Positions 26,868 to 28,593 of a stretch of 35,057 nt of DNA are shown here, one piece after another (within the stretch, counting starts at the first letter, position 1; each line of letters opens with the position of its first letter). The notes beneath the pieces were generated by a model. The model did no database searches and was not told where the DNA came from. It saw nothing but the letters and a program-made list of their open reading frames with translations. The stretch spans positions 1-35,057 of the forward strand of contig JAAEPW010000963.1 in the NCBI GenBank assembly GCA_024232355.1, in the 5' to 3' direction. The position numbers and the translations under genes were made by a program. The DNA is from Chloroflexota bacterium (GTDB lineage Bacteria > Chloroflexota > Anaerolineae > B4-G1).

Positions 26868-26934
26868 TTGTTTCTCCTTTCGTAAATAGTTGTTACGTCA
26901 CCTTTTCGAGTTGCCGCTAATTACGTTGTTCCAA

Positions 26935-27091
26935 GCTGATTGACTGACAAATCCTTTCAGAATCGCAGATGAACACAGACTCACGCAGATAAATGTCGAA
27001 TTTAGCTTGAAAACAATGTGCAATCTGTGTTCATCTGCGTCTATCGGCGGTTATTTATCGTATTTGGCATCTCATAGTTTTGTCAATCAGC
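26935..27091. repeat. Inverted-repeat element, copy A
   Basis: Ends: GCTGATTGACTGACAAA (26935-26951) and TTTGTCAATCAGC (27079-27091) in opposite orientation. The inner palindrome is GATGAACACAGA (26968-26979) and TCTGTGTTCATC (27024-27035). The layout matches copy B at 27776-27895, in the same orientation. The length and terminal symmetry resemble a MITE. No open frame inside. Confidence 0.75.
27057..27086 (-). promoter_or_regulatory. Possible promoter carried by repeat copy A
   Basis: On the minus strand, TTGACA (27086-27081) is part of the repeat end. It is followed after 18 bp by TACGAT (27062-27057). It points at the GlsB-like gene. The -10 box is poor and the copy B equivalent lacks it, so confidence is low. 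Confidence 0.3.
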
Positions 27092-27130
27092 CAGTTGTTC
27101 CAAGTCTAGTTCAGTATTTCCACCTCCTTT

Positions 27131-27742
27131 CTAACGTGCCAGATACTCCTCAATCGCCGCCCCAAGCTCTGCTGGCTCGAAACCAAACGGCCCCAACCCC
27201 GCAGCGTACACCACCCGCCCATCTACTCCCACCAGGTACAATCGCGTGGGCATCGCCGCGTACGCTTTGTTCACCCGGTCGTCCATCTCATCCACGTACG
27301 TTCGAATCCCGTACTCGAGCGCCGCTTTGCAATCCCCTGCCACCGCCCGTCGCTCATCAATGGTCTTGGGGTCGTACACGTCTATGGCTGCTTTGGACCC
27401 CGATGCCTTGAGTGCTAATCCCACTACCCCTCCTCCAAGCCACCAGCCATCCACGGGATGCGCTTCGCGAATATAGATCATCAAGAACTGGACCTGTTCG
27501 TGATACCGCGCGTAGAGATCTTGGAGACTTACAGTCCCCTTGACAAAGGGCGGTCAGGTGAAACTGCCAAAGATCAGCGCTACTGGTTTTTTGCCATTCA
27601 AGTCTGACAGGTGAACGGGGTTCTCGCCATTGATGTCGCGCAGCTCGAAATCTGGTGCCACATCCCCCACTTTGGGTGCCTGGGCGTCCAACTCTGCTTG
27701 CTGGTCCTTGAATTTCTTCCGAAATTGTCTAGCTTTGAACAC
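27131..27742 (-). CDS. Deiodinase-like selenoprotein, in-frame TGA as probable selenocysteine
   Basis: Read as one frame, this gives a 203-residue thioredoxin-fold protein. GTG at 27742 follows AAGGAG. VGDVAPDFELRDING opens the redoxin domain. LIFGSFT is followed by TGA at 27554-27556 (position 63) and then PPFVKG. Residues after the stop, IYIREAHPVDGWW, and later DERRAVAGDCKAAL and YLVGVDGRVVYAAGLGP, continue the same fold. The context GSxT-U-PPF followed by YI-EAHP-DGW is that of iodothyronine deiodinases and their bacterial relatives, where U or C occupies this site. Treating TGA as a true stop would yield a 62-residue stub and an orphan C-terminus. Bacterial members are probably redox enzymes; the substrate is unknown. 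Confidence 0.85.
27523..27539 (-). promoter_or_regulatory. Candidate bacterial SECIS hairpin
   Basis: In the mRNA, 14 nt after the UGA comes GGGGACU, loop GUA, AGUCUCC: a 7 bp stem with one G-U pair. The loop begins with G, 22 nt after the UGA. Bacterial SECIS elements bound by SelB typically put a small G-containing loop some 16-37 nt downstream of the UGA, so position and shape fit. The flanking CUU/AAG could extend the stem. Confidence 0.6.
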
Positions 27743-27775
27743 GGTCTCATCACTCCTTGTTTAACTTGTCCCAAC

Positions 27776-27895
27776 CTTGATTGACTGACAAATCTTTTTA
27801 GAACCGCTGATGAACACAGATAAATGTCGAACTTGAAAATCTGTGTTCATCTGCGTTTAATTTTTTGTGCCTGATACCTCATTAGTTTTGTCAAC
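27776..27895. repeat. Inverted-repeat element, copy B
   Basis: It has the same build as copy A: TTGATTGACTGACAAATC at the left, GATGAACACAGA (27809-27820) and TCTGTGTTCATC (27840-27851) in the middle, and TTTTGTCAACC at the right. It is about 37 bp shorter than copy A. It lies immediately upstream of the deiodinase-like gene, ending the gap to the next methyltransferase gene. Confidence 0.75.
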
Positions 27896-27915
27896 CAACC
27901 CCCACCATCAAAATT

Positions 27916-28593
27916 TCAGAATGCCAATCGCTGTCGTTCGCCCACCGCGCAAAGGCCAATGTTTTGACCCTTAAAGTTCAGGCGAAAAGGATACACCGCG
28001 TGGCCTTTCCTGACCGCATAATCCGCCACGCTCTCCAGCCAATGAACGCCCAACGGAGGGTAGAACGGCTCGTCGATCACACAGCACGGAAACAACACAA
28101 ACCCGCAACCATACTCAGCTGCCGCGTCGATCACCTGGACGTTGCAGCCGTGTGCGTGCATCCCGACCAGCATATCATAGTGGCGGGCCATATTTGCTTG
28201 GAATGCCCGATCTACACGCCGCACTCGCTCGGTGGAGGCAATACGAACGCGCTTTCCGGTGCCAATATCCTTGTACTTGTCCGGCAGCGACTGGCTCACA
28301 GGATCAATCACGACCGCCTGCCACCCGCTCTTTTGCAACAAGTGGGTCAACAATCCCTTGCCGCCCGCAATGTCGGCGATCCGGCAAGGCTCAAAGCGCT
28401 CGACCAGCCAGCGGTGAAAAAGTTGAAACCGAAATTTTTTCATTTTCCGCAGTTCGTTGGTCTTGTGTGCTTCCAATTCTATCAGCCGTGATATGTCTTG
28501 AGCGTGAGTGCAAGAACCGGTAGAATGCTCAGATATTTGTTCCAAGCTCGCGTAGAGTTCTTGTCCAAGTTCCTTGTCTTTGTGTCTAGCCAT
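27916..28593 (-). CDS. Methyltransferase-like protein of unknown specificity
   Basis: The 225-residue protein begins with a charged helical region (1-60). It then shows a SAM-binding-like motif IADIAGGKGLLTHLLQKSG (about 72-90) and the strand-2 acidic end VVIDP. A later half ends in a hydrophobic strand (FVLFPCCVIDEPFYPP) and FRLNFKGQNIGLCAVG. The glycine-rich loop and following acidic residue fit class I methyltransferases, but the usual catalytic NPPY or similar motif is not present. ATG 28593 is the start, preceded by weak ribosome sequence. I cannot name a substrate. Confidence 0.65.
   Translation of the reverse strand: MARHKDKELGQELYASLEQISEHSTGSCTHAQDISRLIELEAHKTNELRKMKKFRFQLFHRWLVERFEPCRIADIAGGKGLLTHLLQKSGWQAVVIDPVSQSLPDKYKDIGTGKRVRIASTERVRRVDRAFQANMARHYDMLVGMHAHGCNVQVIDAAAEYGCGFVLFPCCVIDEPFYPPLGVHWLESVADYAVRKGHAVYPFRLNFKGQNIGLCAVGERQRLAF

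Follow-up and report, generated by a model that had tools for sequence, protein, structure and literature searches.

A 35,057-nucleotide contig assigned to a Chloroflexota bacterium (here called the window) carries two open frames separated by a single TGA, which raises the question whether they are the halves of a broken gene or one gene in which UGA encodes selenocysteine (Sec). The initial annotation had joined the two frames, which lie in the same phase, and placed the product in the T4_deiodinase family. We verified the coordinates and the presence of exactly one internal stop, and the family assignment held. The gene begins at a GTG codon, and the sole stop within its frame is the UGA at codon 63, inside the stretch GSFT-U-PPF. 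The read-through protein matched Pfam PF00837 (T4_deiodinase) over residues 4-200 with an E-value of 2e-28 and a score of 99.7 bits, well over the cut-off of 27; Redoxin and AhpC-TSA matched it more weakly. An AlphaFold2 model of this protein reached a pLDDT of 93.1 and a pTM of 0.90. The two frames most probably form a single intact gene that encodes a thioredoxin-fold, deiodinase-like selenoprotein, and we estimate a probability of about 0.88 that its product is a Sec-containing, deiodinase-like redox enzyme. Note that no tRNA was detected in the window by ARAGORN, that Rfam returned nothing over positions 26900-28000 up to an E-value of 1, and that a promoter and terminator scan gave no more signals than shuffled sequence.

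Table 1. Positions of the deiodinase-like gene, its proposed functional elements and its surroundings in the window.
Feature	Position	Strand	Basis or remark
Deiodinase-like gene	27742-27131	minus	203 residues with UGA read through; one frame
Likely ribosome-binding site, AAGGAG	27758-27753	minus	10 bases upstream of the start; seen by eye in the sequence
Internal stop TGA, codon 63, putatively read as Sec63	27556-27554	minus	TGA in 77 of 79 readable relatives
Candidate bacterial SECIS-like hairpin, GGGGACT-GTA-AGTCTCC	27539-27523	minus	Covariation and codon choice
IYIREAHPVDGWW motif, with His95 at the place of DIO3 His202	27478-27440	minus	Alignment to DIO3 and DIO2
Cys138 codon TGC, proposed resolving cysteine	27331-27329	minus	C138 in 158 of 173 UGA members
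Terminal stop TAG	27133-27131	minus	Translation
Methyltransferase-like ORF	28593-27916		Reading of the translation; flanks the gene
Small hydrophobic ORF	26867-26619		Reading of the translation; flanks the gene on the other side
Palindromic repeat, two direct copies of ~125-155 bases	26937-27092 and 27778-27900		Flank the gene

We analyzed the conservation of codon 63 by a genome scan that found 128 relatives, and the 80 best of them served as our loci. Among these best 80 of 128, the closest relatives of the gene were in Chloroflexota metagenome-assembled genomes (MAGs). Most of the 80 records were titled Chloroflexi or Anaerolineae, the other titles including Poribacteria, Latescibacterota, Planctomycetes, Neomarinimicrobiota and Deltaproteobacteria. 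The homologous codon was TGA in 77 of 79 readable loci; the remaining locus, L074, starts downstream of the site. One of the two exceptions, L073 (Opitutaceae), has TGC (Cys). The other, L058, aligned as TTG, yet contains a TGA in the upstream frame just ahead of a frameshift. A frameshift was also present in L070. In the close relative L002 (8001-8609), a second in-frame TGA occupies the position of Trp101, and this copy may be decaying or mis-sequenced. Separately, the divergent relative L125 (in genome G064, 1450-2034; 49% identity) reads TVF for PPF after the UGA and EAHARDAWW for EAHPVDGWW, and perhaps represents a paralogous group. A scan of viral contigs yielded no relative, and plasmids gave a single distant match (23.9% identity, Mycolicibacterium).

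Matches were also sought in three draws of genomes. In 199 genomes of one class there were 12 matches: all 10 that scored over 70 bits held exactly one internal TGA, and the 2 near the cut-off held one and two. In 400 genomes of the phylum to which that class belongs, 8 of 11 matches held one TGA, and the 3 without, all divergent (<53 bits), carried Cys, Ser or Gly there. The third draw took 294 genomes from the phylum to which a MAG titled Pirellulaceae belongs; 95 of them matched, giving 122 matches in all. One TGA was present in 109 of these matches and none in 13, of which 2 begin late in the model and may miss the site. Seven of the 13 were examined, and TGC was found in L147, L153, L161, L195, L211 and L220, and within an odd motif in L231. 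Predicted Cys forms thus exist but are a minority of the family. Neither TAA nor TAG was noted within any of the matches listed from the three draws, and TGG was never seen at the site in the DNA of any relative that was read.

A bacterial SECIS element would lie close behind the UGA. In the window, the stem of a candidate hairpin starts 14 bases downstream of the UGA. Folded alone, this hairpin was little better than shuffled sequence (z of -0.66 to -1.63 at four lengths), and because single-sequence thermodynamics is unconvincing, the case for it rests on covariation. The alignment used, A3, comprised the window and 64 of the 80 loci (65 sequences, 62 distinct); L058, L060, L063, L064, L066-L069, L071-L075 and L078-L080 were left out, the site being unreadable or Cys, or the hairpin being in another register or unclear. 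In the six-pair stem, 90.3% of cells were paired and 23 cells were altered on both sides. The covariation score was 0.248, compared to 0.050-0.140 for slid partners. None of 500 shuffles reached the observed score, paired percentage or number of changed cells, while 86 of 500 attained the observed count of pairs with both sides altered. The outermost pair is poorly kept, not forming in 30 of the 62 distinct sequences.

Codon choice in the stem was counted in those 63 of 78 UGA sequences in which one of the two facing codons is for Thr or Ala and the other for Ser or Arg, kinship being ignored. Where the first codon was Thr (ACN), the partner Ser or Arg codon ended in T in 42 of 42 cases; where it was Ala (GCN), the partner ended in C in 16 of 21 and in T, giving a G-U pair, in 5 of 21. 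Ser in the hairpin was encoded 50 times, by AGT (39) or AGC (11) and never by TCN, although TCN accounts for 55% of Ser codons in the remainder of these genes. Likewise, Leu in the hairpin was CTC in 55 of 63, compared to 21% elsewhere in these genes. In a distant group (L066-L069, L071, L072, L078-L080) the best hairpin lies ~3 bases closer to the UGA. These data support a hairpin that keeps its pairing through compensatory changes, as would be expected of a bacterial SECIS element.

The Sec machinery was sought in the genomes behind the 80 loci, SelB and tRNA-Sec in 50 of them and SelA and SelD in 22 of these 50. SelB was over the cut-off in 41 of 50 genomes. A tRNA-Sec scored above 60 bits in 44 of 50 (45 of 50 by the Rfam cut-off of 47), the 60-bit threshold being chosen to lie above the second matches in these genomes, which score up to 58.9 bits. 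Of 14 named controls, 2 responded at stricter E-values, E. coli and M. jannaschii. SelA was present in 18 of 22 genomes and SelD above the cut-off in 16 of 22, and in all 16 a SelD match contains one TGA of its own. In G048, the genome of the Cys relative L073, neither SelA nor SelB over the cut-off was found, SelD gave a partial match below the cut-off, and the tRNA-Sec match reached only 51.2 bits, which is over the Rfam cut-off yet within the range of second matches. G048 was one of four genomes with neither SelB over the cut-off nor tRNA-Sec above 60 bits, the others being G017, G031 and G042. G017 and G042 contain SelD with one TGA and are therefore likely to be incomplete MAGs. In the 199-genome draw, tRNA-Sec was present in 7 and SelB in 8 of the 10 strong carriers, the figures for the whole draw being 147 and 160 of 199. 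Sec genes were thus not commoner in carriers than in the draw as a whole and, the trait being common in this class, co-occurrence within it tells nothing. Note that, with the Sec trait so common in this class (that of G016), many of its other selenoproteins are probably mis-annotated.

The conserved UGA, the covarying hairpin, the Sec genes of the relatives and a Cys homologue whose genome gave neither SelA nor, over the thresholds used, SelB or tRNA-Sec together support the initial proposal of Sec at the deiodinase catalytic position. Its expectation that homologues carry Sec or Cys at position 63 agrees with TGA in 77 of 79 loci and TGC in L073. We consider it very likely that UGA 63 is decoded as Sec by SelB and tRNA-Sec, guided by the hairpin downstream. 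A pseudogene, in which a nonsense mutation or sequencing error had split the gene at its active site by chance, is extremely improbable: a few relatives do show damage (the frameshifts of L058 and L070, the second TGA of L002), but the same codon is TGA across many phyla while the rest of the frame is intact. A chance nonsense mutation, already judged unlikely in the initial annotation, is refuted by this conservation, including that in 10 of 10 strong matches of the 199-genome draw. A changed genetic code, with UGA read as Trp or Cys in a protein without selenium, would account for the Trp that stands at the site in database homologues. However, TGA is an ordinary terminator in the window, ending 16 of 31 non-overlapping ORFs of at least 110 residues (one of the 16 being an antisense ORF over the deiodinase-like gene), and it also ends many of the homologous genes themselves. 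With the codon never TGG, and the hairpin and the Sec genes of relatives fitting Sec, a changed code is highly improbable. UGA as Trp was rejected specifically on the TGA terminators and the lack of TGG at the site in the DNA that was read.

The initial annotation had also forecast that automatic annotation would yield two fragments. This was right in kind: of the 1699 database homologues that passed the threshold 120 were listed, and 105 of these 120 start after the UGA site; for 88 of the 105, the alignment begins at residue 71. The remaining 15 (P0001-P0015) span the site, all with Trp. They sit on contigs of which the longest measure 676 to 1837 bases. Because no DNA read has TGG at the site, the Trp is probably an artefact of a gene finder using a translation table with TGA as Trp. 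Searches for Sec or Cys forms would miss these 15 homologues.

We compared the protein with structures of known function. By profile and by fold, the nearest solved chains were animal DIO3 and DIO2, followed in structure by AhpE, named a 1-Cys peroxiredoxin. The window protein shares with animal DIO1-3 the thioredoxin/peroxiredoxin-type fold and the stretches GSxTUPPF and IYIxEAHPxDGW, as aligned to DIO3 and DIO2. In alignment A2 (the window and 55 loci), Glu93, Ala94, His95 and Pro96 were present in 56 of 56 sequences. The peroxiredoxin active-site motif is PxxxTxxC. It is absent from the window protein, where residues 56-63 read LIFGSFTU, and deiodinases clearly outscore AhpE and other peroxiredoxins as a match. 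The protein also differs from the animal enzymes. DIO1 and DIO3 have a Cys two residues before Sec (U-2), where the window protein has Phe61, and the distal Cys239 of DIO3 corresponds to Ile146 in the profile alignment. The N-terminal helix, as read from sequence and model, is full of charged residues, unlike the animal membrane anchor. Finally, the putative SECIS is of bacterial type and lies inside the coding region, unlike that of animal deiodinases, and while these act on iodothyronines, the window protein has no known iodothyronine substrate.

A second conserved cysteine lies 75 residues after Sec. In the profile alignment, C138, which lies on a helix predicted by AlphaFold2 (128-142), is matched to Leu in DIO3 as well as in DIO2. 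C138 was present in 158 of 173 distinct UGA members, a count made without the frameshifted L058 and L070, five duplicates and rows lacking TGA at the site, and with a Planctomycetota set of 100 of the 122 matches, nearly all top-scoring. Of the 15 members without C138, 14 had another Cys in residues 58-151: C61 in 4, C66 in 3, and C132, C139 or C121 in 7. Only L046 had neither C138 nor another core Cys. Among the 158 with C138, 26 had a further core Cys. C61 or C66 occurred in 0 of 158 members with C138 and in 7 of 15 without (Fisher p of 7.9e-9, ignoring kinship); C132, C139 and C121 are less telling, since some of the 158 members also carry them. A quick tree required at least 7 changes of C138. 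On this tree, independent pairs favoured a swap of cysteines by 3.1 to 0.0, but were too few for significance (median p of 0.25). At U-2, Tyr or Phe was found in 155 of 180 UGA rows, and at U+3, Cys in 3 of 173 members. We infer that C138 may be a resolving cysteine that is able to move. The family may consist of two-residue redox enzymes whose resolving Cys has moved repeatedly, being C138 in most, at U-2 in few (the position used by animal DIO1 and DIO3) and at U+3 in others, a reading to which we give somewhat less than even odds.

The catalytic cycle would most likely be peroxiredoxin-like. The selenolate of Sec63 would attack an oxidized substrate, for which a peroxide is our best, though tentative, guess from fold and chemistry. 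Cys138 would then resolve the intermediate to an internal selenenylsulfide, a step we regard as slightly favoured, and thioredoxin or a small thiol would reduce it. Alternatively, Sec63 might be recycled directly by an outside thiol, with Cys138 being structural. L046 would be in line with such a one-residue enzyme, as would the proximity of AhpE in structure and the finding, in the accessible text of PMC9141512, that mutating the distal Cys of animal DIO1 had no detected effect. We consider this rather unlikely in view of C138 in 158 of 173 members and of the other core Cys in 14 of the 15 lacking it. The protein could also catalyse reductive dehalogenation proper, as the animal enzymes do, with iodinated or brominated aromatics as substrates, given that its nearest relatives of known function are animal deiodinases and that both stretches are shared with them. 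Against this, thyroid hormone is not expected in bacteria (as argued in the accessible part of PMC1088965) and no recurring neighbour in the clustering of neighbour families points to halogenated compounds, making such an activity improbable. The peroxiredoxin-like cycle with Sec63 and Cys138 is the scheme we prefer.

Neighbouring genes were clustered across 80 contexts (the window and 79 loci, with up to 6 kb taken on each side). No widely recurring neighbour or operon emerged, and the two largest clusters were antisense ORFs over the deiodinase-like gene itself. What we take to be a glycine/sarcosine reductase selenoprotein B-like protein is encoded nearby in 7 of 80 contexts (L004, L014, L017, L019, L039, L042, L070). 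A presumed phosphofructokinase-like gene lies directly upstream in L023, L026, L029, L030, L035 and L065, followed in L026, L029, L030 and L065 by what are presumably HypA- and HypF-like (hydrogenase maturation) genes. The two repeat copies flanking the gene in the window share blocks of 43, 22, 21 and 18 bases that are 89-95% identical. Allowing up to 2 mismatches, the window contains their 16-base core 4 times (0.04 expected); as an exact match, the core occurs in 0 of 120 loci. The repeat looks like a small mobile or REP-type element.

Bacterial deiodinase-like selenoproteins are not new. According to the accessible portions of the sources, Sec and Cys forms with a bacterial SECIS were reported in 2005 from the Sargasso Sea (PMC1088965), a further count followed in 2008 (PMC2398784) and a fusion to an EF-hand domain in 2021 (PMC9402790), and reviews of 2022 (PMC9312934) and 2026 (PMC13188914) list the family with the motif UxxC. 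With the 2005 family, as far as its accessible text describes it, the window gene shares the PF00837 match, the predicted active-site Sec (UGA), a hairpin directly after the UGA and a bacterial host. The UxxC of the reviews is absent: the window protein reads UPPF, with no Cys at U+3, and has the conserved C138 75 residues after Sec. We do not count UxxC as defining, because the older table (in the accessible part of PMC2398784) gives no motif for the family. The window gene belongs to this already known family. Chloroflexi are not named in the accessible text of PMC2398784, PMC9312934, PMC13188914 or PMC9402790. Among the literature matches listed, in a search covering few subscription journals and parts of the texts, none described a Chloroflexi or Planctomycetes member of the family or a resolving cysteine in it. 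The conserved C138 and its swap may be the part of this work that is new.

In conclusion, the family tends to be cut by gene finders and so is easily overlooked, even though it was matched in 95 of 294 genomes of one phylum. Its correct reading gives soluble-looking bacterial relatives of the deiodinases. The proposal of a resolving cysteine is testable and bears on both the mechanism and the origin of deiodinases. If the resolving cysteine has indeed moved repeatedly, the bacterial majority would provide soluble models of the distal cysteine, so far unexplained in the animal enzymes, and of the role of the deiodinase fold before thyroid hormone.
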